Assembly (NCBI GenBank): GCA_948567375.1
Contig: OX419762.1
Span: forward strand, 9,430,001 to 9,494,000
Direction: 5' to 3'
Origin: Lunularia cruciata
Taxonomy: Eukaryota; Streptophyta; Marchantiopsida; Lunulariales; Lunulariaceae
DNA length: 64,000 bases
The notes below the pieces were generated by a model. It was not told where the DNA came from and ran no database searches. It was given only the letters and a program-made list of their open reading frames with translations. Positions 6,260-60,074 of this stretch are shown here, in pieces (the first letter of the stretch is position 1; each line of letters starts with the position of its first letter). The translations under genes and the position numbers were made by a program.

Positions 6260-6900
6260 TGCACCTTGGGGCTTATGACCTTGAAGGACTTTGGCTACAA
6301 AAGGTTCCTAGCACTACTAAGATGTTTTATGCCAAAGTTCTTCCTCTACAAAGGTGTCTTCCATGACAAAGGCCTTATGTGCCAAATATCTACAACCATG
6401 CAGGTCTTCTTCTATGAAGATGTCTACAAGTACAAAGGCCTTCCACCCCAAAGGTGTCTTCAACTACAAAAGCCTTCCTCTACAAAGGTCATACAACCAA
6501 GAAGAACATCTACAACTAAGAAGGAATTTCGTCAATGAAGGATTCCCTACATATAGAATATTACTCCTCTTTCCTTTGGCTGCATCCTTGGCAGTCTTGA
6601 TCAACAAATGTTGAAAGCCTTCAAAAGATTTTTTCTTCTTTGGTCTTTGTATTGAAGAGGTCAGTGACTTTCTCAGTGATTTTTTCCACCAAGGTAGGTT
6701 TGTATGTTGCTCTAGCCTCCTCCTTGAGTTCTTCTTGTGGAACCTCTTGCCACAAAGCAACCTCCTTCCTCTTTTCCACCATCATCTTTAGCATCCTTGG
6801 GAACTTTGAGTTCTTCTTGTGGAACCTCTTGCCACAAAGCAACCTCCTTCCTCTTTTCCTCCATCATCTTTAGCATCCTTGGGAACTTTGAAACTTCAAA
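6260..6900 (-). other. Coding-like remnant with an 82-bp tandem duplication
   Basis: The minus strand holds a lysine/glutamate-rich reading that looks protein-coding (EKITEKVTDLFNTKTKEEK, KRKEVALWQEVPQEELKEEA). An 82-bp unit is present twice nearly identically, beginning at GAGTTCTTCTTGTGGAACC at 6726 and again at 6808. Because 82 is not a multiple of three, the duplication shifts the frame, so the same DNA is read as two different peptides. The neighbouring plus-strand stretch 6330-6500 is rich in short CTACAAAGG-type repeats. I recognise no family. It may be a captured host-gene piece inside a repeat, or the remnant of a mobile element. No start or splice sites are evident. Confidence 0.4.
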
Positions 6901-24913: not shown

Positions 24914-27900
24914 TAGTTTGGAGAAGAGTGGAAGCAACAATAGAAGAAGAGAAAGTCAAAATTGACAAGTTTGATGGCAAGGATTTTGGAAGATGAAAAT
25001 CAAGGATTATCTATATGAGAAGTAGTTGCACTTGCCCCTTGAGGAAGAAAAGCCAAAAGAGATGGAAGATGCTAAGTGAAAGTTGTTAGATTGATAGATT
25101 GATTTAGGTTTGGTCTAATTGACATTGACAAGGAATGTTGCATACAACATTATCCATGAGAAGACTACTCATAGATAGATCAAGGCATTATCAAACATGT
25201 ACTAAAAACCATCTGCTTCAATAAAGGTATGTATGATTTTCCAATTAGTCAATACAAGGATGAAAGAAGGAGCATCGATCAAGGATCATGTGAATGAATT
25301 CAATTTTATCATATTGAGATTGGAATTTGTGAGGATTAATTTTGATGATGAGGTTCAGGATTTGCTATTGTTATCATCATTTCTTGATAGTCGGGGAGCA
25401 ACAATAACAAAAGTGAGTAATTTATGTAGAGCAAGTGGTTTAAGTTTTGATAGCATTTGGGACTTAATTCTTAGTGAGGACATTTGTAGACACAATTCTA
25501 CAAAATTGTCAAGTGTAGTGTTACATATTGAAAGCAGAGGTAGAAAGTTTCACCAAGGTCAGAGTCAGGGGAATGGCAGATCCAAGTCAAGGAAGAGAGG
25601 TGAGTCAATATGTCACAAATAATTATTCAAGGAAATAGTTTGCTAGAATTGCAACAAGGTTGGTCACTTCAAAAATCAGTGTAAAAGTCTGAAGGATAAG
25701 AAGGAAGATAATTTGGTGAATGTAGCAACAAAACATGATGATGTGCTTATTTGTTGTGTAGAGTTTACAATAGAATCTTGGGTTATGGACTCTAGAACAT
25801 GGTTTCACTCTACTCCATGCAAAGAATTGATGCACAATTTTGTTCTTGGAAACCTTGGAAAGGTTCATCTTGTTGATGATAAACCCTTGTTATCAAAGAA
25901 AAGTGAGACATGAACTTAAAAACCTCTCAAGGAACTACATGGACAATGACAGATGTTAGATACATCCTTGGACATAAGAGAAATCTGATTTCTATAGGTC
26001 AATTAGATGTGAAAGGATATCACATATCTTTGAAAAGCAAACATTGCAATACTTGTAGGGGTAATATGGTTTGGCATGAGTGCATAAGGTTGGAACCTTA
26101 AAAATTACAAATAAATCATATCATCTGATGACAGTTGAGAATGTCAATCTTTTGATCATGTGGCACCAAAGGCTTGGACACATGAGTGAGAAGTATATGA
26201 AGCATTAGTTTCCAATGGCAAAATTTAAAAGTCAAAGATAGTTCAACTTAGCATTTACAAACATGTGTGTTGGGAGGGTCACCTTCACAAAGGTTGCTAA
26301 GGCACCAAAAGCTAGAAAGCTAGAGTTAGTACATACAGATGCGTATGGTCCTACATCAATTGAGTCACTTGAAGGATCTCGCTGTTATGTCACCTTGATA
26401 GATGATGCCACCAAGAATGTATGGGTGTATTTTTTGAAAAATAAATCAAATGTGTTTATTAATTTCAAGAGGTGGAAATCTGAGGTTGAAAACCAGACTG
26501 GTCAAAACATCAAATGCTTGAGATCTGATAATTGTGGAGAGTATAATAGCAATGAGTTCAAAGATTACTATGTAGAGAATGGAATTTGAATGATACAACT
26601 CTTCTTGAGACTCCACAACAAAATGGTATGGCTGAGCCCTCGAACAAAATTCTTAATAATAGGGCCAAAATTATGAGACTACATGCAGGGTTGCAAAAGA
26701 TATTTTGGGTAGATATAATTAGCATGAAAACATACCTGATAAATTGAGGACACTCAGTTCCATTTGGATTCAAGATTGTTGAAGAATGGTCCGGAATGGT
26801 CAAGAAAGGAGGTAAATCTTTCACACTTGAGAACTTTTGGTTGTGTCTCACATGTAAAGATTAAAGATAGTGATAGGAGCAATAGGAGCAAACTTGATCT
26901 AAATTGAAAAAGTGTTTCTTCATTGGATATGGGTATGATGACATGGGTTATTGTTTCTAGTATACAGATGATAGAAAAGTACTCAAAAGTAAAGATGTCA
27001 TTCTTCATGAGACTGCTATGTATAAAGATAGGCTTGTTGTAGAGGCTTAAGTTACAATGGAACAACAAGAAGAGCAGTGGTAGAACATATTGCAGAGTGT
27101 GATGTTGAAGGAAATAAGAGTTGTGTAGAAATTAGAGATAATAGTGCAGATCCAAAGTGCTTGCATGTAATAGAATTGAGGAGATTCACTAGATTGCAAA
27201 TAAAGAGGTAGTATAGATCTATGTATTACTTGCTTCTAATGGAAAATAGTGAACTTGAGTGCTACTCAATGCAAATGGACAACACAATGCAATGGAATTT
27301 TGTAATCAAGGAAGAGGTGTCATCCTTGGAAAAGAATGAGACTTTGTGATTGACTAAGTTGCAAAAAGAAAAGAAGACATTGTAGAATAGATGAGTGTAT
27401 AGGTTCAAAGAATAACATGATGGAAGCAAAAAATACATGGCAAGACTAGTAGTAAAATGTTTTTAGTAGACAAGAGGTAAAAACTACAATGAGATTTTCT
27501 CTCTTGTAGTTAAGATGACTTAGTCAAACTGGTCTTGGGTCTTGTGATGACAAGGATTTGCATCTAGAGCAATTTGATTAAAAACAACATTTCTACAAGG
27601 AGATAATATGGCGGATGACTCTATTGCACAACCAAAGGAGTCTCAAGTCAATCATAGAAAAGATATGGTTTGCAAGTTGAAGAAGAGTCTTTATGGTTTG
27701 AAGTAGGTTCCTTGATAGTGGTACTTAAATTTTGATGGTTTTATGGCTGACAATGGTTACACTAGATGCAAGATGGATTGTTGCTACAATAATAAGTCAT
27801 TTTTTGATTCATACATCATTTTGCTATTTTATGTTAATGATATGTTTGTTGTTGGGTCCAACATGAAGGAGATCAACAAGTTAAAGTGATGTTCTTGAGA

Positions 27901-34150: not shown

Positions 34151-36660
34151 TTTTAAATTGAAAATATATGTTGCATTATTTCATATATAATTTAAATTAA
34201 AGTAAACTAATTATTTTACATAATTAATTTTTGGATCTCATATATTTAAAATTTGTTTTAAATTCTTTGGTGCCTTCTTTCTGAACTCCTGGGAAGAACT
34301 TTATACGATAATTATTAACATTATTATAAAGTAAGAATAAAATTATTATCAGGACGGGCTGAATCAATTCTGTACTCTTATATCTCATGTGGATCTAATA
34401 TGATGTTACAATCAAATTTAGAAAATGAATAAAAATAAATTTAATAATATATATTTTAATTTCTAAATATTAAAATACTATTTAGTATATGGAGGAAATC
34501 AAGATTGAAAGAGGAGTATATAAAAGACTAAATAATGGACAAAACAGTATGATTTCATTTTAAGTTTCATTCCATGATATCATATGTAAGTTAGGATATT
34601 TTATCATTTCAAAATTTATCAATATATTTGAGTTTAGTTTATGTTGTGTATACGATCATCTTAATGTTTGAAATACAAATTACTTTTCCAGAAACTAGTA
34701 AAATTTCATGATAAACTATAGAATTGGAATATCTCTTTCAATTTTTGGTGGTCAATCACTGACTATTATAGTTAATGGTTGTTTAGTATTTATTTTGACC
34801 TATATGTAGCAAATACTTGAAAATAATGGACACTTAAATTAAGCCTTTATATATAGGATCCCAAATTTTAGGATAATAAAATTTCCTTATTTATTAATAT
34901 TAAGTAATTGATATTATTATCAGAAATACAAAAATTTGGGAGTTTTAGTAAAACCAAAGCTCTAGATTTAACTTGAATTTTAAGATTTATCAAATTTTCA
35001 GAGTTACTCAAAATAAAATTTGTTCACTGTCATAGTATAGTAGTGAAGTAAAAATCTCAGACTAGTACCTTTGTATAGAGTTAGAATTATATTTGTACAT
35101 ATGAATTTATCGTGCTAGCTCTTAGGATCCTCGTACCCGGTGCATATCCTCTATATTCCTATATATTATGGACTTTTATTTGAGCTTATACTTCCAATTA
35201 GTATTTACTATGGATCATACTCAATTCTAATTTGTAATTATTATAATCAATTAACTTTTACAATGGAAGGCAAGACCAACCAATGAAACATAGTCATTAA
35301 ATTGTTATGTAAGTGGTTCTTCTCCTCATCTTTAATTTGATTCTACTTATATATTCTCTGCTCAGGTCCCGTTATCTGAGTATTCTATTGCCAAGTCAGG
35401 TGCTGATGTTCTGGAATGCGCTAATGTGAATCTCATAGAATCTTAGAAATTACCCCCATGTCTTTTGAAAATATTATTTAAACATTTCAAAACTTTTATC
35501 GCATGCACTCAAAAATTATGTATAGACATCTATCGTAATCAAAGATGTTTCTTATGGTTACTTGAAATTTATATTATATTGAGTCCCACACATAATGTAT
35601 TATAGTCAATTTAGTAAATTATTATACTTAACATTGTTAATATTCAAACTAGAACATATGAATGATAATCATCGTTAAAATTAGATTCCTAAAAAATTAT
35701 TTTTTACTTTTAGAATTGACTCTTCAATATGATAATTGAATGAATGAAATTTTTTTGATATATAAAAATTTATATGTAAATATAAATATAAATATAAATA
35801 GATATGTATATTTGAAAATTTTAGAATTTATATTCTAAAATTTTGGTCAAGTTTTCTAAAAAATAAAAAAAATCAATGCACCTTATATATATAAATATGT
35901 AAATAAAAATAAATAAATAAAGAAAATAAATACATGAGACTGAATACTGTCAAAACTTTTAATTTACAAAAAAATGTTTTAGTTCACATGACCATGGCAA
36001 CCTCCGCCTCTCGAAGCTGCATTAACTACTATCAAACGCTAGCGAATATGTTGACGGTAAAGTGATGTCCGTAAGGCTACTGAAAGTTTCAAGTATTATT
36101 TAGTTTAGTTACCGATCCTCTTGAGCCATATTTACAAATTTTTTATAATTATCTATCTATTATATTTTCCAATTATCACTGAACTAAAATATTTTAAACC
36201 TAAACTTGCCACACCAACGATGAGTGGAATTGTTACATTACTTCAGCCCTAGCAAACTTCGCTCACCCTGAACTTCAGATTCAGCCTTAGCTAAATCTGA
36301 AATTAAGTGAGTTGTTAACCTGAATTCAGAACAAAACCTTGATTTTGGCCAAATGAGATCCTCAGTGGCTCCTCTTGAGGAAGGTTAGATATCTCCCAAC
36401 TCTCAAGCCAAAAGTTTATATCGAGGTGAAATTTCAAATGGTATCACTTTCCAAGTATCATTAGGTGGGAATGATTAATATTTCATATGAATGTTTCTAT
36501 AGATTATTAGTATCTCTAATTACTAATGGACTGTTATTGATATCATTAAATGATTATTGATAGTAATCAAATATTGTACCTCAATGAGACGAGTATGTTT
36601 CTCTCTATGCCCATTAAAGATTAAATTATAGCAACTCAATACAATACTAAGTTTTCATTC
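34151..36660. other. AT-rich intergenic DNA, nothing recognised
   Basis: 2.5 kb of strongly AT-rich sequence with simple A/T-rich stretches (such as the ATAAATAAATA-like runs near 35.9 kb). No coding signature, RNA gene or element ends were found. Confidence 0.55.
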
Positions 36661-36828
36661 AATGTTTTGCTGCATAGCGTTGCAAATGCATTGCAGGCAA
36701 CGAATGCTGTTTTACACCAACAGAAAGATATGGGCATCCAAGTGGAATTATCAAACAATGAATCAAGTCAAGCTGAGGTTTCAGCAATGTCAAAAGTGCT
36801 TAAATCAAGTAGACTAGTCAGTTCATGA
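36661..36828 (+). other. Possible exon fragment of unknown gene
   Basis: A plus-strand frame of about 55 codons ends in TGA at 36826-36828 and reads NALQATNAVLHQQKDMGIQV followed by a Ser/Glu-rich tail. Its composition is protein-like (Gln, Asn, Glu, Ser), unlike the random frames around it. Two AG acceptor-like sites lie at its start. No matching upstream exon or start was identified and I do not recognise a family. It may belong to the upstream part of the NLR pseudogene 1.6 kb further on, or to an unrelated broken gene. Confidence 0.25.
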
Positions 36829-38400
36829 ATATATATTATCGAGAGAGTGGATTCTATTTTAAGGATCTCAAAATGTTAGCGAAGTTACAAAGGCAGTTGC
36901 AAGTTTCGATCCCATTTTATTCAGATTTTCACCTGCACCATAAAATTACTTTGATTTGTTCCTGTTAAATTTTCTACCATACCTTAGTAAATAAGGAATT
37001 ATACTCAGTGTACTGCCGTAAAGCATCTCCGAACACTCCAGAGTGTAAACAGAAGTACGTAAATCATTTACCCATTTGTAACTTTCAGTAAGGGAGAAAG
37101 GAGGAAGGAGAGAAAGATATATTATCTTTTGGAAGAAATTAAAATTTGAGAAAAGGAGAGAATTACTAGATCAATGCCGGGGTCAACTTTGAACCCAGAT
37201 TCTAGAATAGTGATCAGAATAATATACTCAGATGAGCAAAAAATTTGAGAATAGGAGAATGGATTAAAGAGGAAAGAGAGGCTGAGTCCATGCCAGAACT
37301 GGCATCTCATCTAGGAACTACTAAAGCAGGTCTTTAAGCTCCAAATCAGATCCCTCCATTGATTAGCATTATCATTAACATCTTAATAAGACCATGGGCA
37401 TGCATTGTGTGCCAAGCACACTTCGTATAAATGGACATATTACATGGACAAAAGCTTACATACTTCCATATAAATAGACGCTGGCTGGTGCAGATATCTG
37501 GTTCCCTCATATCGCCACTGCTTGTGACCCTCGTGCTAATAACATAAAGGCATATAAACTTCCCTAATCTTAAAGGGAATCACTGCACGAGCCCGATAAA
37601 GGTGGAAACAACTAAGTTTAGTTGGCCTCTGCCACTGGGAAAGGTTCTTATATATGCTGGGTGAATGATTTATTGAGTCACCCTAGCATACTAGATCCTA
37701 TGACTTTCCGACCCAGTTGAGGTATCTTTAGGTTACCTATTTTGAGCTGATATTTTTGCCCGATGAGCCAAAAATTCACATACAAGATTAGAAATTATCC
37801 ATACATTTTGTGAATGGCCATTTTGATTACTTATTTTTTTAATATAAGTTTTTTTACTATTTAATAATATTTATTAAATAATAAAAGATTAGAAATTCTC
37901 CATACATTTTATGAATGGCTATTTTGATTACTTATTTTTCCAATATAAAATTTTTGTACTATTTAATCATATTTGTTAAATAATAAATTACAGTGAAAAA
38001 ATTATAAGTTTATTGATTTCAGTGATTTACAAAAATGGTAATCTACATAATCCCCCCGCCTTTGCACGACTAAAATCGGACGGTGCCAATTGGGATGTGG
38101 TACCCACCTACGTAGTACCAGATGACGTTAACGTTCTTTCGACTGTACCTAATTCATCTCGTCTTCTCAACTCGCTTTTAAGACTTTTGACTTGCGAGTC
38201 TTTCTGGAATACTTAGTGATAGTTTACTACTTTACACAAGTACGCAATTTCAATGGTTGTTGAACTGGTTTCCTCCAATGCGTGCAGTTTAATCTTTTTA
38301 GGGAGAGCTCGGGGGACCAGGATATTTTTGTTGCGAGGCAAGGATGTGCACTTCTAGAGAGAGGAGTAGTAATAAGAACAGAATGTTGAAGTGTCTGTAC
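36829..38400. other. Upstream flank of the NLR cluster, no gene established
   Basis: Mixed composition. A duplicated AT-rich segment of about 100 bp is visible (ACATTTTGTGAATGGCCATT near 37.80 kb and ACATTTTATGAATGGCTATT near 37.90 kb, each followed by a similar TTGATTACTTATTTTT stretch). A plus-strand open frame at 38013-38216 (LHNPPAFARLKSDGANWDVV) follows an acceptor-like TTGATTTCAG and may be a decayed exon. It has no recognisable domain. Confidence 0.35.
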
Positions 38401-38407
38401 ATCTTTA

Positions 38408-38780
38408 GTTCCTTCAACACTTCTCGGGTGAGGGAGCCTTTAGTTTTTGTGTGAGAGATAGAAGGCTCGCAGTCTAGGCACAGCAAAGAAGTTGGAGACG
38501 TGACGTCGATCAGCAACGAGAGATGGATGAATTTCGTTTAAGATGCTATTCTGGATTGAATGGAAACTTGTTGCGGGTTCTATCTATGATGTGGTTCCTT
38601 CGACGCTTCCCCGGTGAGAGAGCCTTTAGTTCCTAAGTTGTAGAGATAGAAGAGCCTTGGAGTCTAGGTAGTGCGCAGGAGTTCGAGACGTGTAGTATTC
38701 AGCAACGCGAGGTGCACGTCTTCGCTTGCGATGCTATTTTGGTTCGAAGGCAAACGTGTGGCTCTTATTCTCGATTATGG
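38408..38780 (+). repeat. Tandem duplication, 186-bp unit, in coding-like DNA
   Basis: GTTCCTTCAACACTTCTCGG at 38408 recurs as GTTCCTTCGACGCTTCCCCG at 38594. Both are followed by GAGAGCCTTTAGTT-, AGAGATAGAAG-, GTCTAGG-, GACGTG-, CAGCAACG- and GATGCTATT-type blocks in order. Translated plus-strand frames are protein-like in both units (QQREVHVFACDAILVRRQT in the second). The region lies just upstream of the hydrolase part of the NLR pseudogene and was probably its first exon, duplicated once. Confidence 0.6.
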
Positions 38781-39329
38781 CGACCTCAAGTACGCATGCA
38801 GAGTCCAGCACAGTGTGGTTTGGCAATGTAGAAACAAGGGCAAGATGCAAACGGGTACTTTTCCTTCTCAAAACTCAATAACATCATAGCCGTAGGCCTT
38901 GATTCCACTCTTTAATCAAACCACTCTTTTTCTTCCCTGTATCTGAATGACAGATTGAAGGTGGTTGGACTCAATCTCTCAAGCAACCTCATCCATTTGC
39001 AAGAAATGTCCAGAAAAATCTATTTGCAATCTAGCTAATCAACAACTCATGCCCGAATACTCTATTTGCATACAGTCGTGAAAACTTTTGTACTTCTATG
39101 TCTCACTGAATCTATGTGCTAAACTTCGTAGTGCCATGTTTGTGGTACATGTTTGATACCCTCTTCATGCCATCTTCAATACCGACTGAGAATTACAGCT
39201 GAATGGAAATGAGAGATTGAGATAGTACACGTCGTCTCCAACCTTTCATTGGCGGCAACCATTATGTGTACTTGCATATATTGCATGCATATCAGTGATT
39301 CTTCTTCTTTGGATTTTGTGTTTTGTAGC

Positions 39330-40407
39330 TAAGTGACGAGGTGTATGAGCTCTAGTTCCTGAAAAAGGACCAGTCAACTTGGAGATTGTTCTTTACATGG
39401 TTTTAACCTTGAAGAAAGAGAAGACGCTTACCATCAACTTAGAGGCGAAAGGAAGACCCTACGTGTTCGCTGTACTCTCTGCTTGCCGAAGCATACTCGG
39501 GTTCGTGCAGTTTCATACGATGCGAGTATCGTTAGAACGTTTAAGAAGGGGAGGATAGACATGTATAAGATTGGAGAGAACTTGGCTCAATCTCTCATCC
39601 AGCATGCAAATGTAGGGAAAAATTGCCCAGTTGTACTGATTGGTCAATGTTTTGGTACTAAAGCTCTCTGCTTGACAACTGATCAATTTGCAACTAGTAG
39701 GAAGAAGCACATCTATATACACCAATATCCCTACTCACGCTTTTTGAGCAATCTCAGAGGAGTGTTCTTCTACTCCACGGCTCATTCAGGATCCCCAATA
39801 TTTCAGAGAGGAGAATCGGAGGGGAAAGGTGTCTTGGTTGAATGGTGGGAGCTACTTAATTCAGACGCTTGCAGAATAAACTAATTTGCGGCATTGCGCC
39901 GACAACGCGAGTGGAAAGCAGCTGGTGTTTGTGAAGCCAATGAAACCGATATAACGGCGGCCTTGTCCAGTATGTATTTTGACCAACTTTCTTCAATATT
40001 GATTGCACGATTCAAGAGGTTTCAAGAATCTTTTATTTCACATACTTATACAAAATTTGCGCTCAGATGGATACATGCTACTAAAATGGGTGAAGTGAGT
40101 GGATGCTGCTGGGATGGATCATAGTTCGTTGGCTCGAACCTAATTCACAGTGTGCTGTGCGTTCTTTTATGGTTTACGCGATTTCCTAAAAAGCTTCGTA
40201 CTGCACTCGTGACGGAAGAAGCGTATATGATCACTCAGCGACATATGACATCGATCTAGAATGCTTGTCTACTATTCCTGGAGAAGATTACTTTACCATT
40301 TGTAGGCCTAAGCATCGACAGTCGATGAGCTTGCAACGTCAATAATTTTCTCCACACCATATGCATGGAAGAGGTGCGTATGAGTCTTTTGCGCTGGCTA
40401 CAAAGGT
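39330..40407 (+). pseudogene. Hydrolase domain of the NLR pseudogene
   Basis: After an acceptor-like TTTTGTAG the reading runs VPEKGPVNLEIV, then (after a frame change) LHGFNLEEREDAYHQL, matching the xxVFVHGL start of SERAC1-like hydrolases. It goes on to HTRVRAVSYDA, GRIDMYKIGENLAQSLIQHA, CPVVLIGQCFGTKALCL (nucleophile-elbow position, Cys where esterases have Ser), LSNLRGVFFYSTAHSGSPIF (conserved after-elbow strand), and LVEWWELLNSDACRIN. Following stops, a later frame gives EDYFTICRPKHRQSMSLQRQ near 40281-40340, like the DHFSVCRPK end of this domain. A donor AAG/GTACGTAT closes it. Whether the Cys is ancestral or a decay change cannot be told from one copy. Confidence 0.75.
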
Positions 40408-40489
40408 ACGTATATCTTCATATCAACAGTAATTAATTACTGATGAACGTTTAAGGATGTATGGTATATGAACTGCAAGATGCCATTTG

Positions 40490-41408
40490 TAGGGACCTAG
40501 AAGATCTGGAGAACTCTAGCGAAGTCGTTGATGATACGGTCGGTGTATTGCCAATATTTGGCACAAGCGTTGTTGTGACAGTTCTGAAGTTTATGTAGAC
40601 CATGTGATGCATTTGTGTCCACCCAAGGTGGAGTCAAACCGTCACCTCACATTTTAGACATTAATTACTTCAGTGTCATGGATGGAGGTGACGCGCTGAA
40701 AGCTTACATAACTTCAATTTAAGCTTATCTGAATAGAGGTGACGCGATGAAAGCTTACAGAACTTCAATTTAAGCTTATCTGAATAGTCTTCAGGTATGC
40801 ACAATTCATCCAAAGTTAGTGGAAGAAATACTGGGAAAGTGCGATGGATTACCTCTTACGGTGGAGGTGAGGAAGCTACTTACGCAATGAGCATAGATTG
40901 GCAAAATGGGAGGGTACGCTTGATAAGATGCGCAAAGCAGAATCTCAGGACGGGGTCACAAATGACAAATTGTTGGGGAAATTGAGAGTGAGCTACGACG
41001 ATCTAGGGAAGCCGGAACAAGAGGTGTTTGTTGACTTGGCCTCGTTTGAGAAGGATGGTCCAAGGGAAAACCAATATGATCTGGAAGTGTTCATGGCAAC
41101 ATGGAGACCAACGGCGTATGGAATAACGGTGCAGGTGGAATTGCAGAATTTGGTGAATAGATTACTTATCCGCATCATCACACACAATGGTGATGACGCT
41201 AATGGAGGGACAAGACTTGATAGTGTACATACACGCGCAGCTGAGGGACATGGGGACCATTTCCAGCCGCCGCGCACAAGAGAATTGCAGGGCATTTTGG
41301 AAGCAAGAAGATGCCGAGCGTCTCTTGACCATGTGCAAGGTGAATGCCGAAATAGTCTGGTCATCCAATTTGTGCATTTCAATGAACTGTCTGAACATAC
41401 GTATTATT
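40490..41408 (+). pseudogene. NB-ARC remnant of the NLR pseudogene
   Basis: The first piece (DLEDLENSSEVVDDTVGVLP) follows an acceptor-like ATTTGTAG. No P-loop (GxGGxGKTT), kinase-2 or RNBS-B is visible. A 51-bp tandem duplication (40686-40736 and 40737-40787) sits where they would be. Then come HPKLVEEILGKCDGLPLTVEV (GLPL motif, about 40810-40870), KLRVSYDDLGKPEQEVFVDLA (the segment after GLPL typical of plant NB-ARC, about 40978-41040), and IVYIHAQLRDMG at about 41220 (MHD-motif position, Met-His-Asp replaced by Ile-His-Ala). Frames change between pieces. Loss of the nucleotide-binding core means no function as a switch. Confidence 0.75.
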
Positions 41409-41484
41409 AACTCGTATGATTTTGGTTTAAGTGATACCAATTTGGATTTGGAATCTATACTTGTTTAATTTTTCTTGTGTACAG

Positions 41485-44280
41485 AGGGGAACAGTCATCA
41501 CCAATTCGAAGCTCGAGGTACAATCCGTTGGGCTGAAACCGAGAGGGGCATCCTCTGATACTGCTATCAGTGAAGGGAAGGCTCAAGGTTTACCGTGGGG
41601 TACTTCCCATGAATTGGCAAGATAACGCTTGTTGAGAATGTCAAAGATCAACATAACTGAATCGAATCATACTCGGCCGATTTCCGTCTGGTCTGACTCT
41701 GCTACACATGGTCCATTGTTCCAAACGACCCCTGGAACGATGGTCACATTTGAAGGTTGTGGAAGAGTGGCCAATTTGAGACAAAGATGTAGGGGCGCTC
41801 CATCAACTGGCTATTCTCCTCTTGGAAAAGTGCGATTATGTAAGACTCCCTGAGAACATACACGAGCTGAAGAATCTGAAGATTCTCCGCCTTGATGGCT
41901 CGAATATTTCAAAGACTGACCGACAAATTTTATCTTCTTCCAAGTTTAGAGATTACATCTTCAATGTGCACAACTCGAGGAACTACCGACTTCATTTCTG
42001 CAATTCCGAGAGTTGAAGACCCTAACGATAATACGTTGTTCAGCTTTGAAGGGATGGCCAATTCCAAACCCAGTTGCGACGGTGCCACAAGGGTCCTTTC
42101 ATCGTGATGCTCTCACGAGTTTAACTCTGAAAAATCTTCCTTCTTTGATGGGATTGCAACAGCTTTAGGAGAAAGAGATTCCTCGAAACACTGTGCATGA
42201 ACGACTGCTCTGATCTGAAGTCTCTGCCTGAAGGTTTTGGCGAGCTGAAGCACCTGAAGAAACTGCAGATAATGTGCTGCTCAATCTTGGAGTCCCTATG
42301 CGAATCTATGCTGTCCAGGTTTCGGCACCTGGACAGCCATGAGGAGCTCCCTCTACGGGAACTCCGTGCTGTGAAGATGCTGCCAGATTCAATGTGATCA
42401 TTGCGGTCTCTCGAAACGTTGTATTTGTTCAAAGTCCCAAACTTGACCACATTCTCAGGGAATATATTTGAGATTCGAATGCTGACAAATCTAAATATTC
42501 GAGAATGTGAGCGCTCGGAGGACCTGGGGCAAGGATGAGGTCAGCAGAACTCGACCGCGTTTCAAGCTTCCAAACATTATAATATCCACATTGACTCGTG
42601 TCCCAGATTCAGATTTCTTCCCGAATCTCTTGGGCAGTGTAGAGCTCTAGCAAAAATGAGTGTCTGGCGCTGTATAAACCTCGAATGTCTGCCCGAGTCC
42701 TTAGGGGAACTTAGAGAGCTTACATAATTAAACCTTGACTCTTGTGACAGCATCAAGCGTCTACCCTGGAGTCTCGTAGTGGAATACCCGAGTCCTTCGG
42801 GCGGCTCAGCCCCCTAACGTCTTTCTCAATTAGGGGTGAGAGCCATCCTTTGAGTCTACCTTAGACCTTAGGACATCTTGGATCACTAACAGAATTAAGA
42901 TGCAGAAATCTGAACGAAATCCCGGATTCAGTCGGGCGCTCGAGAATACTTGCGTATTGAAGGTGGAATGGTTCCTACGAGTTCACCCGAATCTTCGGTA
43001 AACCTTGGATCACTAATATATCGGGGAAGTTAGTGGTGGGAGTCAATCCTCTAAGTCAACCTGACTCCTTGGGACACCTGAGGTCCTTAACGGACTTGAA
43101 ATGCAGAAATGTGAAGGAAATGCCCGAGTTCGTAGAACAACTCAGTGCCCTGAGAACCTTGACAATAACTGGTGGAACTTTGGAGAAACTACTGGACAGC
43201 TTGAATCGTTGGGACGTTGGTGGTGGAGGAATGCACTAATATTAGCGGAGTCCCGATTTCCCTGAAAAGATTCACCACACTGCGGAGTCTGCAATATCCA
43301 AGAGCGAGATGTTCGACAAGGTATCTCAAGCTCTACACCATCTGGTTATGCTTACACCGCTGATTGCACCCGATTTTAGACACTTCGAGGGTTTTCCGGA
43401 GTCACTAATGCCTCTCACGAATTTAGTAGAATTATCAATAAGTGGATCTAAAACATGTGATGTCAAAAAACTGACGTTCGAATCACTAAAACGACTCCCT
43501 AGATTGATCAGTTTGACAATACATAAAGCTGAGAACTTCGAAGGTCTCTTGGAATCACTCGGGCAACTGCCGAGGCTAGTGTCCTTGTTCATCGGGGAGT
43601 GTAGAGATGAACAGCGCAGGTTTGATATGGTGCTGTCGGGACAAATCAGATCCCTTAGATAGTTGAGTTTTGAGAGATGTGAAATCAAATAAGTCTGTCA
43701 ATGTCATTTAGATCCTCTGTTGAGATCAAGGATTGTACCAGGTTTGAGCGAATACCAAATTCTGGGAAGTGGAGGAATTTGTAGATGCAAAACTGAGCAA
43801 GGTTCACAGGTCTGCTCGATTCTTTCAGGCAGCTTGGGAATATCTCTCACACTAAAGATGGAATAGTTTGGTCGTGTTATTAACAGATACGTAGAAGCTA
43901 CGACACGCGCGATACGAAAGAGGATGGCAAGACCCATCAAGCCGTATAAGGAAACAAAGGGTAAAACGGGGGCTAAGACCCCAGAGCATCGCCCTGATGT
44001 CGTGCTGCATCTACGACGTCGAAAACATTCATAGAATCCAGTCAGAAGGCTTCTGAAGACTACTATTCCATCGGCGAAACATGTACGTGCGAAAAAGTTA
44101 TCAACCAATAACCAAGTTTATCCAAGTCTGTTGAGCAGCGTCAAAGACGGTCTACGAGATGCATAACAATTCAAAATGATCTTATCTGAAGATTGGGAGA
44201 GCTTAGCTTTGAGTGTCTAAATAATTTGGTTTCTGAAGGATCTCACTGAGTTCTGATCGGGTCGGAACTTAAGCACTAGT
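41485..44280 (+). pseudogene. LRR region of the NLR pseudogene (block 1)
   Basis: Many plus-strand LRR units of the plant intracellular type (LxxLxxLxLxxCxxLxxLPxSLGxL) are scattered over several frames: LPEGFGELKHLKKLQIMCCS near 42230, LPESLGQCRALAKMSVW near 42620, PDSLGHLRSLTDLKCRNVKE near 43065, MPLTNLVELSISGSK near 43410, LKRLPRLISLTIHKAENFEG near 43490, and LGQLPRLVSLFIGECRDEQR near 43560. Stops and frame changes between them show decay. The 3' part (about 43020-44270) has a diverged duplicate at 45.9-47.25 kb. LRRs normally give ligand or effector specificity. Confidence 0.75.
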
Positions 44281-45850
44281 ATAAAAATCAGAGGATGACA
44301 TCTTTCTTACAGCAATTTCCTTTAAAAGCATAATTATATGTACATTTCCTAATGTCCAGTAATAAGTGGTGAAAAGTGTACAAGATTTAGTAAAGACTGC
44401 TTTTTATGTATACAACGAGTTATAACACATCAGATTTTCATGGGGATTCGATGATCCAGAATTCAATTTCACTTTATTTTAGATGTCTGGATGCCTATGA
44501 TTTTGTCTATATTGACCAACAGCCCGTGCAGCAATTTGACACAGCACTTTTAGTCCCTTACACTATGGTGCGTCACGGAAATTTGGTTGCGAATTCCGTT
44601 TGTTTATCTTGGCAACTTGGCTTGACAAGTTGAACGTGTCTAACTCAGTGCTAGTGATCCTTTTACTATGTCATCCGCTCTTAAATGATATGAACGGATT
44701 CTCTATTAATTTCAGGACTTCCAAATCTTAAACGATTCGTATAATAAATCTTCAAATTTGTATAACAAAGCTCCAAAGTTGAGAAGCTAGACGTGTCTAG
44801 CTCATTCTAAAACATTGATCCTTTGTCTATATCATCATCTCTTAAATGGTTTAGAACCGTGCTATAATGAACGGGTTTTTTTAATCAATTCCAGGACCTC
44901 CAAATCTTAAACAATTTGTATAACAAATCTCCAACAGCTCATGTAAACTAGACTAATTGTCTCGAAGCAACTGATACTTCTCGTCCAAGAATTACAGGAT
45001 CCTAGTAGTACGTATAATTCATGACCAAAACATGCCCGCTCTATGCCATACAGATTATAACATAGTTCTCGAAACTTAGTTGTGACGAGTGTTCGAACCA
45101 TTTTTTGTGTTGAATCACAAAATCTCCCTCACAGTTACTTTGCTTTTCTGTCTTCATGGGGTCCGCATACAAATTTGGTCCCTTATATTGTACTTGCACC
45201 CTCTGAATTTCTGGTAGATTGAATCTTGAAATCCTTTTGGCATGTTGCAAGGGGTGACTAGGTAAGCCCCGTGCATCGTGTCGATGTCCCGCCCACAAAA
45301 ACAGTTCCGTCCATTGTCTCCCATCCCCCTCTTACTTCCTAGAAATAATTTCGTTTATTGAATCTATCCGTTTTCCATTTCTGCTCACAAAATCAAGTCC
45401 ATCTATCATCCCCTGGCGACATATCCTCTTTTATATATACATATATAAATATTATAGAAGACAATTGTGTTCTAAAGCTAAGTAAATAGCCACGTTACAA
45501 TCAGCGACCAGTACAAATGGATCAACTCGAGATACGTCTTATGCATTGGAGCGCGTAGCAAAGGTAATGGGAATGCTAACAAACGTCGTACCTCGATTTC
45601 AACTTAACGAAGGGATTTATTTGATCTTTACATTGCTGGTTGATATTAAAGTACAAGACTTCGTGAAGACTTTGAAGTTTGTCGGTTATTACTAATTTTT
45701 GGGCTGACAGAGTTCGGTACGGCTATCTTTACGGACGAGGTAGGTATGATCGTTCTTGCTGAGTGTTAGACTTAAGTAGTAAGTCTAACACTAGTCAGAT
45801 CTATTTGACGTATGTATTAAACCGCAGAATTAACCTAGGTCGCCTTGTAG
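44281..45850. other. Spacer between the two LRR blocks
   Basis: Mixed to AT-rich DNA with no LRR or other domain. Two related stretches near 44620-44770 and 44790-44940 (AAGTTGA-ACGTGTCTAACTCA and AAGTTGAGAAGCTAGACGTG, each followed by GATCCTTT, ATCATC-, CTCTTAAATG- and CTCCAAATCTTAAAC-type blocks) form an old direct duplication with a period of about 170 bp. Confidence 0.4.
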
Positions 45851-45879
45851 TGCACATCTTCTGATGTGCACTCGTTCCC

Positions 45880-47250
45880 GAATCTCTCGTTCCACTAGCA
45901 GGGTTGAGTAAGTTGCCAATATATGGGGAGATAGAGGACTAACCTGAGTCACTTGGGACCCTTAGATCACTGCAAAAGCTCAACATAAGATTTTGTAACA
46001 GCACCCCCATGTTCTTAGGCCGACTTAGCTCCCTTAAAACATTGGAAATAGTTTATAGGACTTGTGGCAGTTTACCTGAGTCCTTGTGGGAGTCCCGGTC
46101 ATTCACATGGGTAGATTGCACAAGTGTGGAGTGAATGTCGGAGTCCTTTCGGCAACTCAACGGCCAGGTGAATCTGTTTGTGCGCGTAACCAAGTCCTTG
46201 CGACATCTTGGGTCCCAAACATGACTTTAATGCAAAAGAATGCGAAGGCAAATCCTGAAACCCCAGGGCAACTCGGAGGTGTAAACACCTTGACAATATC
46301 GGTGGAACTCTGGCAAAACTAACCAAGTCCTTGGGACAGCCAGGATCGTTGACAAGGTTGAAGGTTGTGGAGTGCAAAAGTATTAGCAGAGGCTCAATTC
46401 CCCTTAAACAATCCACCATACTGAAGAGATCCAGTGAGTCAATATCCAGGTTCAGTATGTTCGAGAAGGTTCCTGATGCTCTACTGTAACAACATTTGCT
46501 TGTGCTTAAATCGTTCAGTGTACCCGATTTGAGACACTGGAAGAGTTGTCCAGATTCACTCTCGACACTCGCTAATTTACGAATTACTAGTGTCTTGTGA
46601 CGAAAGCGATATTTGAATCACTCAAACGACTCTCTAGATTACGCTCGTTGACAATAAAGAATGGTGAAAACTTAAAGGGTCTCTTGGAATCACTATGGCA
46701 GCTGCGAAGGCTAGACTCCTAACGTCTAACATCTAAGCGCGGTCTGATATTCTGGATAATTCACATCCCTTAAATGCTCGACTTTCGACAAATGCAAAAT
46801 CTGCAGAGTCTGAGTCTTCATGTTGAGATACCAATTTGATTTCAATGAGCACTCAGAAACTGCCAAAGATTCACATGCCTCCCTGATTCTTTCGGGCAAC
46901 TTAGGATATCTCTTACAATAAAGATAGACAGGAACATCGGTAGTTGAGTTTAGAATTCACAAGTAGCAGGCACCGTATGCCATGGCAGTTACAGCTCTGC
47001 GCATTAGGAATTCAGCCGTAGCAGGCAACATATGCTGTGGCAGTCAGACATTTTCAGCCTATAACCAAGCTAAAGTGTCGACCAAGTCTGTAGGGCAGCT
47101 TCCAAGACCCTATTTGAGATGCATTACAACTCAAGATGCTATTGGTGAAGATTGGAGAGCTTAGCTTTGTATGTCTACAATTTGGTTTCTGCGTATACGT
47201 AGCTCACTGAGTTCTGCGCATTCTGAGGTTACAGCTTAGGCAGTACTCTG
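45880..47250 (+). pseudogene. Second LRR block, diverged duplicate of block 1
   Basis: Plus-strand LRR readings such as LRSLQKLNIRFCNSTPMFLG and LSSLKTLEIVYRTCGSLPES (about 45960-46090) show the same LRR type. At the DNA level the block parallels block 1: TTTGAATCACTCAAACGACTCTCTAGATTA near 46605 matches TTCGAATCACTAAAACGACT near 43475, GGTCTCTTGGAATCACT occurs in both, and ATTGGAGAGCTTAGCTTTG near 47150 matches ATTGGGAGAGCTTAGCTTTG near 44190. No hydrolase or NB-ARC precedes it directly, so it is either a partial duplication or the tail of a second degraded receptor. It is full of frame changes and stops. Confidence 0.7.
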
Positions 47251-48740
47251 AAAATATGAGACTTGTCTTTCAAGAACTTAAAATACAGTCGTCGAGGGCG
47301 ATGAGGGCAGCTGCCAAGTCACTGCTACTAAAAGTGAAACAGCTGAAGTCGTTAAGATTAAATTTTAAAAGCCTTTGCTCTAGGTGCTAACTTTTTGGAC
47401 GATCTTATCATAAAAATTTAAAATATTTAAGGTCGGCTTTTGCACATTTTACCTTCAAACTGCCTATTTGCTATGCGACACAGGCACTGAAACGCGGTGC
47501 GTGATAGAGAAACGGATAACAGATAGTAACTGCTTGTCAAAACAATTCAGTAAGGAGTCGGTTTCCTTTGTGGGACGACTTTGAGGTTTTATCAATTCCA
47601 AAGCGATTGGAAAACGATTCCTGATGGTTTAAGTGCTTGCTATATAACTCTGACAGTTCACTCAACACTCCCGTGAAACATAACTGAAACAATAAAATAC
47701 TGAATCGATGTTTGAAACACAATTGGTACGAAGGGCCAGGGTTCTGATTTGAAACTTTTCCATGCCAACCTGCAGTGCGTTGTTGATTTCAGTCCATGGA
47801 GCTTTTAGCAAGAGTGTCAAAGAACAGTTTTATTGCTAGCAAGCAGAGTTCAATGGACACAGCGTGGTGATTCAATGGCGTCGTGGTGATTCAATGGCAA
47901 AACTCACGTCTGAAAACTCTGAAATAGAATCATCCTCTCATCCCGCAAGATATGCCTTTTGCATTGCGCCTTTGTCCACATAAAGAGTCGATAAATCATA
48001 TCCGAGGTTCATGATAAAGATGTTCATCCCACTACACGAAAGATATCTTTGAATCCGTAGTAGTTATTGCAAAATGATGTTGAGAGGCTTCTAGAATATA
48101 TACCTTCGCAAACTGCCCACTGTCTCTGGCACGCCCAGTGAGTGAACATTTGGCATACATTCCAAATATGTGTGCAGAATATGAAAAAGTTACACGATGT
48201 CTCCACATTGGGTGATGAGGAAATTATATTCTTATTTTCTGTTTACACTTAAAAGTTGATGGTGCGCATGACCCTAAAAGGAAGTGCTTTCTACATCAAT
48301 CGCAACAGCGTCATACCAATGGCGCAGGAAATGCTCCGGATTTGAGTTACTACAATGCAAGGGACTTAAATATCCGACCTTGCGGTGCAACTGGGATTGC
48401 AGATCTGAAAATCATGACTAAATACATAATCATACAGGCAATTCTGCTGCGCTAGAGTGTCAGATCACGAATTTGAATAATTCGAACCTTCTGTCTATGT
48501 TGCGAACTGCATGGGGTGAGGAGAGGATGATTCTACAGAACTTGACCTACGGAATTCTAATCACTAGGCCTAGCTAAGTTAAGACAGGCATAATCAATGT
48601 CGTTGAGTGTTTGAACGAGATAGAGACCCTGTGGGTCACCATTAATCAGTGGCGGCCAGACGTTAATTGATTGATTGACACATGGATCGCATAAGTTCCT
48701 AACCTCAAGTCGGAGCAACTGTTCAACTCATACCAGCGGC
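47251..48740. other. Mixed-composition DNA, no domain recognised
   Basis: It keeps the higher GC of the NLR cluster, and short open frames occur on both strands, but I find no hydrolase, NB-ARC or LRR motif. It may hold highly decayed parts of the next receptor fragment. Confidence 0.35.
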
Positions 48741-49395
48741 ATTCTCCTGTCAGTTTGTTTCCAAACGCAATTAAGCAGTCTGCAACGGAAATAGAAAAGC
48801 CGTTGACAGATTGTGGCGGACAATTGAAAGTGAGCTACGACGATTTAGGCAAGGCTGAGACAAGTTCCTTGACATGGCTCGTTTGCTACGGATGGCCAAC
48901 CCAACGACATTATGAACCGCAGATCTACAACATTAAATGAAATCGGACATCGACTGAACATTTATAGAAGGGATACATATCGAAATGCTTAGGCATGCCG
49001 CTATATCACTGAGTTGTTACTACGGAAATGGGATTGTGATCGCAGAGAGCCAAGCTCGCATATTAGGGATACAAGAAAGTTTAGCACAAACCCCCCAAGT
49101 CGTAGAGGACTCGAAAGACAAGACGAGACGAGCTTCATGCATAGTGACCCTTGATGTTGTGCAAGGTAATATTGCTCATCGCCGGTTTACGTTTCACATA
49201 TCTGCGACGATTGAGCGGAAGAGTTCGTACTTGTACTTGAGTGATCAGCATTCAAACTCTCAAAGTCCACTCTATACTCTATACTTGGCTGCAAGATTTT
49301 GTTCGGTGTTGAGGAGGGGATTGGGCTACCTTACAAGAGGAGTAAATTTGGGATTGCAAATTTTAAGAGATAAGTTTTGCCAAGTGATACTATAG
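48740..49395 (+). pseudogene. Third NLR fragment (NB-ARC ARC2 part)
   Basis: LKVSYDDLGKAETSSLTWLV near 48825-48880 is the counterpart of LRVSYDDLGKPEQEVFVDLA in the first pseudogene. The DNA matches well there (GTGAGCTACGACGATTTAGGCAAGGCTGA). Downstream the frame 48985-49395 reads through a segment (IQESLAQTPQVVEDSKD, VTLDVVQGN) in the position of the MHD-region and linker of the first copy. No GLPL motif and no LRRs follow before the 118-bp repeat array. The fragment is in the same orientation as the other two, indicating a former head-to-tail cluster. Confidence 0.6.
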
Positions 49396-49690
49396 AGTAC
49401 ATTCAATTACGAGGACGTAAACATTGGGGTGGCAAGAGAGTTTAATAAAGCAACACAAGCACTACACCATTTATTTTGCCAAATGATATTATAGAGTACA
49501 CTCAATTATGAAAGTATAGATATAGGGTCAGGTCGTAAACATTGGGGTGGCAAGAGAGTTTAATAAAACAACACAAGCACTACACCATTTATTTTGCCAA
49601 ATGATATTATAGAGTACACTCAATTATGAAAGTATAGATATAGGGTCAGGTACACTCAATTATGAAAGTATAGATATAGGGTCAGGTGGG
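49381..49690. repeat. Near-identical 118-bp tandem repeat with nested 38-bp repeat
   Basis: CGTAAACATTGGGGTGGCAA starts at 49416 and again at 49534. The two units are almost identical over 118 bp, and a partial third copy of the ACACTCAATTATGAAAGTAT segment follows at about 49651. A partial, more diverged unit precedes at about 49381. High identity implies a young expansion, in contrast to the decayed DNA on both sides. It lies exactly between the last NLR fragment and the LINE-like element. Confidence 0.9.
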
Positions 49691-55200: not shown

Positions 55201-57200
55201 TGGACTAGTAGGCATGGTCTTTACTATCTCTACCACAGGTGGTATCAATGTTGTAAGATTACATGTTCAACAATCTATACATGAGTATAGAGAGAAAATA
55301 TAATCTATAAACATATAAAATAATTCTTGGGTAATATGAGGAGAATAGATGTCCAATTGATCAACTCTCATTTGCAAATATATCTTGATCAAACAAACAC
55401 ATTTGAAAATATAATTTGATTAAAGAAACATATGTGGATGACAAGCTAAGAAAGTCCAATTTTTGACGTGTGGTATTTTGTGGACTTTGGAAGCTAAGAA
55501 GGAAAAATGAAATTATGGGATTAAATTTTTTTATTCAGTGAGCAAGGTTGAGCAAAGGAAGCACAATTCTAGAATATTAGCTTGGTAATAAGAAGCTAAG
55601 ACTAAAAATTTATATTGTGGAATTATGGTTTTTGAAAAGGAAGTAGAGACAAAATAATGACTCAATAACACAACCCAGCAATATCTTGCTCCAAAAATAA
55701 GAAATAATGAGCAAAGCCACTCTTTTATCTCTTTAGGGAAAATAACAAAGTTGTAGATTGAGCAATTGGATTCCAAGATCTAGAAGTTTTATTTTTCTTG
55801 TTGACTTATGTTGTACTTATACATAATCCAATGACAAAGATTCATCTATATCTTTGTTTTATATCTACATTTTGAGCCTTGTTAATTGCTTGTTGAGATG
55901 TCCGCCTGATAAGTCAAATTAAGAGTAGAAGTTGAAAGATCAAATTTATTCCCAAAGTATAGTTGGTTGTACCTATGATGGAATTTTGGTGTGCAAAACT
56001 TGCAATTCAACAATGGCAATTGCTGGTAATCATGAAACTAGAATCAAAATTTGCAAAAGTTGTGATCCAAAGTCATAGTTAGAAATAAGTACAGTTCCAA
56101 AATTAGAATCTTGTAGGACAATGATTCTAGAATTGTACTTTTCTTTCAATATTCTTCCATGTAAGCACAAATCTTATGACAATATTTGTCATTCTTCCTT
56201 GAATAATTTTACTTGGACCAGAATTTTGGAATGATGATATTTTGACTCTTGGCTTTGCTTTTTGTTCACTTTTATATTACAAATTTGGTCTACATCACAA
56301 ACATCTCAAACTTCATGATTATCTCCACTTTTTTTTTCTCTATACTCTTATACCTTTGATAAATCACTAAGCATTAACATCTTCTCCCCCTTCTCCTGTA
56401 GTTTCTACTAATTTTTATTTCATAGGTTTTTCCTCTTCTTATTTGAAAATATGCTTTTATTGCCTTCTACTTCATGGATATGATAATAAGAGATCAATTG
56501 CCTTTAATGCTCTAGACCTCATTTATTTGTGAAGCTTTTCCTCCTCAACCATATGTTCACATACTTCCCATATTATATAACATATTTTTATTGTGTTGTT
56601 TAATATGTCCTATTATCTCTCACAAGATTTTCCCTCTTTCTTTTTTGCAGCAAGATCCTTTACCATCTAGTTCTTGCTCTCTTTTCTTACCCTAGAAAGA
56701 TTGAAAAAAAGGTATGGGCTAATCACGACCTTATTGCTCTTCATTTCTTAGCTCTATGGATTGTTTATTGTTAGCTGTCTTTGGTCAAAAGAGAGAGGCA
56801 AAAAATGCACGCCAAAGAAATTGATTGCTCACTCCTCCCCAAGATCCAACTACAAGCTTTTAAATAGCAACAACTTACACATATACTATTGGAGCTTGAA
56901 TTAAAATGGCACCAAACTTGTACTCCAATGGATCCTCTTTAAGGGATTTAGATCGTATGCTTCCTAATTACCAAACTTGAAAAAACCTAATATTATTATT
57001 TATTGTCACTACCTCTTTGTGTTGGGACTTGGTAATTTTCACACTTACTACCTTCCTTGGATGTGGTGGCCATATCTCAAGCTCCTTCTTTGGAATCAAA
57101 CCCTAATTCTCCATCATGTCACATGTTACCACCATGGTAGGCCTCTATCCTTCTATCATCAAAAGTTATGAGTGTAGAATTTGAATGAAACATTACTAAC
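52291..57200. other. Mostly AT-rich intergenic DNA, no gene recognised
   Basis: Nearly 5 kb with only short, mutually overlapping open frames (for example near 54.05-54.38 kb minus and 54.6-54.95 kb on both strands). The part 53.5-53.95 kb is very AT-rich. No element ends, RNA genes or domains were seen. Confidence 0.45.
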
Positions 57201-57204
57201 ACTA

Positions 57205-57760
57205 AGGCTATGAAATTTGTTGAGTTATCATGAATCACAATAACATTGAGCAAGTCAAAAATTTTACATGTGGATCACCTATCTTATAGGTATGGGCTCT
57301 TGGCTACAAGAGTTATGATGTCCTGTCACCTCTTTCTATCCTTTGTAAGATTCAAATGGTTTTAATCACACTTTTTCTGAGGCCATACATCTTGTTGAGT
57401 TGCCATGAGTCATTGGAACACCCGGCAAGCTAGCATTGGCAAGATGTAGGTCCACCTATCTGATAGTTATGGATGCTTGGCTATAAGAGTTCTGATGTCT
57501 TTTCCACTCTTTCTATCTTTTGTAAGATTGAAATGGTTTTAATCAGACTTCTTTCAGGCTGTACAATTGTTGAGATATCATAAATTACTAAAACATCCAG
57601 CAAGTGATGCATTGATTAGATTTTGTCCACCTATCTTATAGTTATGGACACTTGGTTTAAAACATTTATGACATTCTTTTCCCCTTTCTATCCTTTGTAA
57701 GATTGAAATGGTTTTAATCACAATTCTTTGATGTGTTATGCCTATTCATTTCTTGACAAA
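57205..57760. repeat. Satellite-like tandem array, unit about 176 bp, about three units
   Basis: CACCTATCTTATAG-type sequence occurs at 57276, 57453 and 57628, at 177 and 175 bp spacing. Each is followed by TATGG-CTTGG, TATGA or CTGATGTC, CTTTCTATC-TTTGTAAGATT and AAATGGTTTTAATCA, and preceded by TTGTTGAG and a CATGAATCAC/CATAAATTAC-type block. The units are diverged but collinear. The unit length is in the nucleosomal range typical of plant satellites, though only about three units are present. Confidence 0.8.
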
Positions 57761-57840
57761 TTGGTATGCTGAACTCTTATGTCAAATAAGTTTGTTGGTT
57801 CTATCCGTAGAGTTACTCTTATAAAGAGTCTCTCTCTTCT

Positions 57841-58018
57841 CATTCTCCAAAATACTATTAGATTGATGAATGATTTGTCTTCCTTCAATATTGTTTTGCT
57901 CTCCAATTTGCTTGGTTCTCTCTCTCTTTGCATTCTCCAAAATACTATTAGATTGATGAATGATTTGTCTTCCTTCAACATTGTTTTGCTCTCCAATTTG
58001 CTTGGTTCCCATATCTAT
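57841..58018. repeat. 90-bp direct tandem duplication, open on both strands
   Basis: CATTCTCCAAAATACTATTA starts at 57841 and again at 57931, and the two 90-bp units are almost identical. Because 90 is a multiple of three, frames stay open on both strands. The minus-strand reading repeats KQIGEQNN-EGRQIIHQSNS. No start context, domain or splice structure supports a gene, so it is annotated as a repeat only. Confidence 0.85.
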
Positions 58019-59208: not shown

Positions 59209-60074
59209 ATGGAAGATGCTTTTCTTAACGATCCAATTTTGACTGACGAATTGGAGTTGGCACTTATTGGTGAGTTGGAGGGAGAAAACACTCGCACAGA
59301 GACAGATACGGGACAAGAGTATATTGACAAAATCGATGACACTCTTTCTCCTGTAGACAACAATGTCATGTTACTCCAAAGTGATACGGACAATCTGGCC
59401 GTGGGACATGAACCTCAAAACAAAATTAAGAAGACGCTACCTCCCGGGGACTTTCAGTGTGTGATGTTGCGGCACCACGTAAAAGTTTCTTTCTGTCTGG
59501 TAAAACCATATGTTTATCGTTTAATTTGTTTACTTGAAGACTGATATTGTTTTGGTCTCTTCCTGTTCAACATTCTGACTTGAAGGCGATAGTGTTCTAA
59601 GATTTTTCCCTTCCAGTTTAAAACTCTAGCATCCCACTTGTATAGGAATTGCGGCAATCAATGATGTTCTTTGCTTTCTGCTAGTGAAACACTTTCTGAA
59701 CTCCTGTGCATGAACCAGAACATACCCAGCAAGTTTCGCAAGCAAAACCAGTTTCCTGCTGTAGAGACTTTGATGAAGTTGGAAAACGAGGAAGGGAAAA
59801 CATGGGATGTTAAGTATCTGCCAAAGAGTCGTTCTTTCAGTGCTGGATGGATTCATGTGGTCAAAGAGAACAACCTGGATCTCGGAGACATTGTAACCTT
59901 TCGCATGGAGCACCCATTCAAATTTAAGGTAACAAAATGTTCACCACACATGATAGCTTATTGTTTATACAGTTTGTTACAACGGATGAGAGTGTATCAG
60001 ATTGACCCCCTTTATCTCAATGCATTCTGTAGATGTACGTAAAGAAGAAGGACGGCTCTACATCCGAAAGCTGA
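59209..60074 (+). CDS. B3-domain DNA-binding protein (small, three exons)
   Basis: Three phase-0 exons fit together: 59209-59499 (ATG at 59209, 97 codons), 59719-59928 (70 codons), and 60033-60074 (ends TGA). The product is about 180 residues. Residues 1-80 are acidic (MEDAFLNDPILTDELELALI). From about residue 84 a B3 fold is readable: FQCVMLRHHVKVSFCL / NIPSKFRKQNQF across the first junction, then TLMKLENEEGKTWDVKYLPK, FSAGWIHVVKENNLDLGDIV and TFRMEHPFKFK / MYVKKKDG across the second. This matches the HV...FWLxIPSKF, LSAGW, GD.xxF and FKVxI landmarks of the plant-specific B3 domain found in REM-like transcription factors, which bind DNA in the nucleus. Donors are CTG/GTAAAA and AAG/GTAACA; acceptors are AACCAG and TCTGTAG. 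Only one B3 domain is present. The target and role are unknown, and upstream noncoding exons are possible. The 5' flank has AT-rich and hairpin sequence. Confidence 0.78.

Follow-up and report, generated by a model that had tools for sequence, protein, structure and literature searches.

A decayed NLR gene with a probable alpha/beta-hydrolase N-terminus in a 64-kb DNA window

In the hydrolase-NBS-LRR (HNL) class of immune-receptor genes, an alpha/beta-hydrolase-like domain takes the place of the TIR or coiled-coil (CC) domain of other plants and precedes the nucleotide-binding site (NBS, here also called NB-ARC) and the leucine-rich repeats (LRR) of a nucleotide-binding LRR receptor (NLR). Here, we describe what is most likely the remnant of such a gene on the plus strand of contig OX419762.1, within a window of 64,000 nucleotides (the whole stretch that was analysed, contig positions 9,430,001 to 9,494,000; all coordinates below are those of the window). 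Xue et al. 2012 called HNL genes liverwort-specific (PMC3352924), and two later papers name them for Sphagnum and Ceratodon mosses as well (PMC10952240, PMC11218826); PMC11850516, in conflict with PMC11218826, states that mosses have no canonical NLR genes. Xue et al. 2012 also describe three introns that are conserved among HNL genes, each of phase 0: one in the hydrolase domain, one at the hydrolase/NBS boundary, and one at the NBS/LRR boundary. They report the third of these for HNL, PNL, and TNL genes but not for CNL genes. According to PMC11218826, the majority of bryophyte hydrolase-NLRs are close to bryophyte TIR-NLRs, one Sphagnum subclade falls within the CC/RPW8 receptors and is suggested to have an independent origin, and the hydrolase domains of two M. 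polymorpha NLRs gave hypersensitive-response-like reactions in N. benthamiana. The initial annotation of this DNA had described hydrolase-NLRs as known chiefly from liverworts, which proved too narrow, and had proposed that the locus bears on the host lineage. Because HNLs also occur in mosses, that proposal reaches only as far as a bryophyte, which the host probably is, and not necessarily to a liverwort.

The plus strand from 38.8 to 44.3 kb is best read as the wreck of an HNL immune-receptor gene with an alpha/beta-hydrolase-like N-terminus, a reading to which we assign a probability of roughly 0.84. The locus is most likely a dead member of the known class and no new type of gene. Its parts were found in the following order:

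38777..38854, plus strand: candidate first exon, putatively 26 codons from an ATG in frame 2, ending at a phase-0 GT donor
38855..39328, plus strand: candidate intron 1, GT...AG, 474 bases, phase 0, with a T-rich 3' end
39329..40405, plus strand: decayed probable alpha/beta-hydrolase (SERAC1-like) domain, recognisable in pieces in frames 2, 1, 0, 2, 0, and 2 that together carry two in-frame stops
40406..40469, plus strand: junction with the donor of candidate intron 2, starting GTACGT, phase 0
40470..40595, plus strand: possible kinase-2 / RNBS-B remnant, frame 0, recognised by eye and lying outside the Pfam match and the NLR alignments
40679..40780, plus strand: 51-base tandem duplication between two NB-ARC pieces, copies 92% identical
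40798..41339, plus strand: C-terminal half of the NB-ARC, with GLPL in frame 1, RNBS-D in frame 2, and an MHD-like segment in frame 0
41340..41484, plus strand: candidate intron 3 at the NB-ARC/LRR boundary, GT...AG, 145 bases, phase 0, with a T-rich 3' end
41485..43659, plus strand: LRR region, switching back and forth between frames 1 and 2, with a total of five in-frame stops across its listed pieces
43660..44311, plus strand: 3' end of this copy (copy A), recognisable only through its likeness to a downstream copy

The LRR part was identified by profile. Open reading frames (ORFs) at 41780-42013 (5.8e-5), 42149-42394 (8.1e-4), 42961-43236 (1.5e-3), and 43246-43659 (7.7e-5) matched LRR_14 or R13L1-DRL21 in Pfam, and the ORF at 42539-42724 gave a weak match (0.11); all of these lie under the Pfam gathering cut-offs, as fragments would, and they bear out the LRRs claimed in the initial annotation. 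Matches of LRR pieces to XopL, XopAE, and XopAC in NCBIfam were taken as LRR-to-LRR similarity.

The NB-ARC part emerged once neighbouring frames were joined. On its own, the ORF carrying the SYDDL segment (40871-41407) had no match in Pfam, NCBIfam, or PADLOC. An 80-residue slice that joined this ORF to the adjacent-frame GLPL piece matched PF00931 at 5.1e-5 (profile positions 182-247 of 248), at 23.1 bits against a curated cut-off of 23.5, i.e., 0.4 bits under it, and a 269-residue frame-shifted read-through matched the same profile at 2.0e-4. A PDB search with the read-through returned nine sequences at E <=10. Eight were NLRs, led by ADR1 (1e-6), At5g04720 (1.1e-6), At5g66900 (6.6e-6), and an RPW8 protein (7.7e-6), with weaker matches to RPP13-like 4 (0.0025), Roq1 (two entries, 0.014), and an NB-ARC protein (0.34); the ninth (0.43) was unrelated. 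The MHD-like IHA segment (41229-41237, frame 0) falls inside the ADR1 alignment. The NB-ARC announced earlier is thus upheld by Pfam and PDB for its C-terminal half (GLPL, RNBS-D, and MHD-like); the P-loop half was not found. Scanning 36.0-49.5 kb with a 9-position P-loop pattern (at least 7 of 9 positions) gave no match between 38.8 and 41.3 kb and two loose ones in the scanned range, both in the LRR part and without the GK core.

How these pieces belong together is suggested by their arrangement. All of them lie on the plus strand, so that the common direction within 6 kb reported by the initial annotation holds. From the hydrolase donor at 40405, the first possible NB-ARC piece, judged by eye, is 64 bases away, and the first Pfam-backed NB-ARC residue about 400 bases. 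A candidate phase-0 NBS/LRR intron (41340-41484) is present as in HNL genes, but it is not specific to them; candidate intron 1 borders the hydrolase part and agrees only roughly in position with the published intron inside the domain. For candidate intron 2, no acceptor was found, and the P-loop part was likewise not found at this junction. Given the phase-0 candidate sites, the spacing, and the common direction, a single ancestral gene explains the pieces most simply. The earlier proposal of one gene gains strength from the spacing and from the HNL-like candidate splice sites, although it stays an inference.

Set beside the HNL (Hyd-NLR) genes of Marchantia polymorpha, Sphagnum, and Ceratodon, the wreck is alike in domain order and direction, in the candidate phase-0 donor after the hydrolase part, and in the candidate phase-0 NBS/LRR intron. 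It differs in its broken frame, in the P-loop that was not found, in its altered nucleophile motif, in a hydrolase identity that profiles did not confirm, and in having candidate intron 1 at the domain edge. These comparisons bear on a competing account in which a truncated NB-ARC-LRR pseudogene would, by chance, have a stand-alone SERAC1-like hydrolase pseudogene as its immediate upstream neighbour. Such a pair of neighbours would fit with the fact that no intact fused relative was seen in the 64-kb window, and the P-loop half was not found right at the boundary, where a deletion could have joined two genes. The same strand and the short distance to the NB-ARC (64 bases to its first possible piece, about 400 to the first backed by Pfam) argue for a single gene, as does the hydrolase part ending in a candidate phase-0 donor, like the HNL genes published in PMC3352924. 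We therefore judge two separate genes to be improbable.

Within the hydrolase part, we observed a single open frame at 39363-40121, comprising 173 codons, one in-frame stop, and then 79 codons. First-order Markov simulations, read in the three plus-strand frames, reached an ORF of at least 173 amino acids six times in 2000 when modelled on 39329-40450 and once in 2000 when modelled on 39329-41340. By eye, the translation displays an HG segment, a VRAVSYD strand, a GRIDMY...ENLAQSL helix, and a PVVLIGQCFG elbow, followed by a RFLSNLRGVFFYSTAHSGS segment and then, in another frame, by a DYFTICRPKH segment. We take this motif order to be that of bryophyte SERAC1-like proteins, and the family label rests mainly on it and on the gene structure. 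At the nucleophile elbow (39630-39659), a Cys occupies the expected Ser position. The elbow fits 8 of the 10 positions of the PROSITE lipase-serine pattern, the misses being a Q at the H/Y/W/V position and the C at the S position; when the ORF was shuffled 5000 times, 77 of the shuffled sequences contained such a fit. A weak Pfam match to DUF726 (PF05277; E 0.11, 39501-39680) covers the expected nucleophile segment; it came from one of six slices that were tried once earlier Pfam searches had given no hydrolase. DUF726 is an alpha/beta-hydrolase family, and the likeness is confined to this weak match at the nucleophile segment (E 0.11 only), on which we claim no membership.

A number of observations weigh against a decayed HNL gene. 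As to gene structure, the first exon is a conjecture, and phase-0 GT/AG sites such as the candidate ones may also arise by chance. As to the receptor type, the best PDB matches of the NB-ARC are of the RPW8 type (ADR1), unlike most bryophyte hydrolase-NLRs; we see in this a small tension, and half of a decayed domain decides nothing. As to the hydrolase part, no confident hydrolase match was found in Pfam (single ORFs, read-throughs, and the six slices), NCBIfam, PHROGs, PADLOC, or, by sequence, PDB, and the DUF726 value is as weak as chance matches of other ORFs in this DNA (0.012 to 0.23). The lipase pattern fits unrelated DNA at 50742 better (9/10) and also three other places, giving five such places across the six frames of the window with the elbow included. 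Searches of collections that hold no plants gave no hydrolase match among plasmids (tblastn, E 10) and, with six peptide patterns, 2 pattern matches in IMG/VR and 20 in GTDB contigs, none of either confirmed. An AlphaFold2 model reached a pLDDT (predicted local distance difference test) of 32.5, with no hydrolase among the 8 + 50 matches listed; it carries little weight, its low confidence being due to the few relatives of the sequence. A codon-preference scan of 38.4-41.6 kb displayed no clear coding signal in the hydrolase part; the NB-ARC part was positive, but it had been in the training set. Matches of the hydrolase part to BigR (NCBIfam, 0.1) and phrog_11471 (PHROGs, 0.19) were treated as chance, and no further hydrolase copies were found in the window.

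The tension over receptor type leads to the question of which NLR lineage the wreck resembles. The ADR1 / NRG1-type RPW8-NLRs (8zw9, 9jbn, 8yl6, 8zf0) provide its best solved-structure NB-ARC matches (1e-6 to 7.7e-6), whereas the RPW8 N-terminus is absent from the Pfam matches and the wreck has a candidate boundary intron, which PMC3352924 reports for HNL, PNL, and TNL and not for CNL. TNLs such as Roq1 (7jlv, 7jlu) are alike in an NB-ARC match at 0.014 and in the pre-LRR boundary intron published in the same paper. As alternatives at the N-terminus, TIR and CC domains were considered, and neither was seen; no TIR domain was among the Pfam matches of the pieces scanned, which covered 38.4-39.3 kb in part of the frames only. 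An origin of the window in a plant that is neither moss nor liverwort, e.g., a hornwort, lycophyte, or fern, in which a hydrolase would have fused independently to a CC/RPW8-type receptor, as proposed for the Sphagnum subclade, appears unlikely to us. The ADR1-like rather than TIR-like NB-ARC match would fit such an origin, and the papers cited here report no hydrolase-NLR from such a lineage.

Because the libraries did not confirm it, the elbow pattern also occurs elsewhere, and the structure prediction was uninformative, the hydrolase label of 39329-40405 is probable only, resting on features of the sequence. The earlier call of a SERAC1-like hydrolase region thus keeps its long open frame, but gains no confident library match: for 39330-40340, where a hydrolase-family hit was looked for, the libraries came close to returning none, with DUF726 at 0.11 alone. 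Along with it, the decayed hydrolase-NLR announced at first is the best available reading, though not a proven one. The upstream frame might also be another N-terminal part or chance-open non-coding DNA, which would make the locus an ordinary decayed NLR. Agreeing with this are a frame that the library searches did not recognise, the recurrence of frames of such length in 6 of the 2000 simulations, the unclear codon scan, and an elbow pattern that fits elsewhere too; speaking for a hydrolase instead are the coincidence in position of the elbow-like motif with the weak DUF726 match, the phase-0 candidate sites, and the agreement of several further motifs with HNL hydrolases. On balance, we give a non-hydrolase N-terminus only a slim chance.

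Whatever its N-terminus, the locus is a pseudogene. The listed pieces contain seven in-frame stops (one each in hydrolase pieces H1 and H3, one in LRR piece L6, and four in L7) and repeated frame changes. We base the pseudogene call on these stops and frame changes, the P-loop part that was not found, the 51-base duplication, and the Cys at the position where a Ser is expected. It is very improbable that the plant carries an unbroken gene and that errors of assembly or sequencing account for the breaks: many of the breaks are frame changes, as is usual in long reads, but seven in-frame stops, the P-loop part that was not found, the 51-base duplication, and partial copies that have diverged by 22-32% are unlike read errors, and a 478-amino-acid frame at 1431-2867 of the same window is unbroken. 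That ORF lies on the minus strand in a CpG-normal block, and Pfam gave it DUF3362 at 0.22 only.

Downstream of the HNL-like wreck, on the same strand, further NLR remnants were observed, and upstream of it lies a repeated segment:

38408..38574, plus strand: 5' flank repeat, copy 1, in which no coding reading was found; 130/176 columns identical to 38594-38762
38594..38762, plus strand: 5' flank repeat, copy 2, as aligned with copy 1
45943..47272, plus strand: second NLR remnant, only the LRR part found, similar to copy A; LRR_14 at 6.6e-3 on 45943-46131
48804..48899, plus strand: third NLR remnant, only the RNBS-D segment found; 80/103 columns identical to 40963-41063

An alignment of 43066-44311 with 46195-47272 gave 813 identical columns out of 1315, with 306 gap columns. 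When eight segments were compared with 44.8-49.5 kb, the RNBS-D segment scored clearly above 30 shuffles (468 versus a maximum of 317), the intron 1 segment gave 333 versus a shuffle maximum of 322, which we took as noise, and none of the other six exceeded the shuffles.

The composition of the window (35.2% G+C) displays a sharp contrast between the NLR block at 36001-49400, where CG and CHG sites are near normal (0.77 and 1.0 of expectation), and a transposon-rich region at 4001-28000, where they fall to 0.11 and 0.26. The loss of CG and CHG sites in the latter is probably due to old DNA methylation. Since the NLR block keeps these sites, the wreck seems, judging from composition, to have decayed outside heavily methylated DNA. 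Elsewhere in the window, we noted a Ty1/copia gag ORF at 25206-25619 (Retrotran_gag_2, 1.1e-6), an ORF with a B3 DNA-binding domain at 59665-60039 (3.5e-14), a degenerate fragment of eukaryotic small-subunit rRNA on the minus strand at 56719-57458 (Rfam RF01960, 153.7 bits), and short tandem duplications, 97-99% identical, at 49412-49647, 57829-58008, and 6724-6891. The NLR, B3, and copia pieces and the depletion of CG and CHG sites in the transposon-rich region suggest that the window is plant DNA.

In intact relatives, recognition of a pathogen signal would be expected to lie with the LRR, nucleotide-dependent switching with the NB-ARC, and the response itself with the hydrolase, an order of events that we infer from NLRs in general. 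The decayed copy would be expected to yield no product, and it should not work, because its frame is broken repeatedly, its P-loop part was not found, and its nucleophile motif is altered. Like the members of other plant NLR clusters, the wreck would most likely owe its origin to tandem duplication and loss. Knowledge of the HNL class itself is unchanged by this wreck. If our reading is right, it adds to the evidence that hydrolase-NLRs lie in clusters with the same birth and loss as other plant NLRs, and that their wrecks can stay recognisable for some time in DNA that is not silenced.

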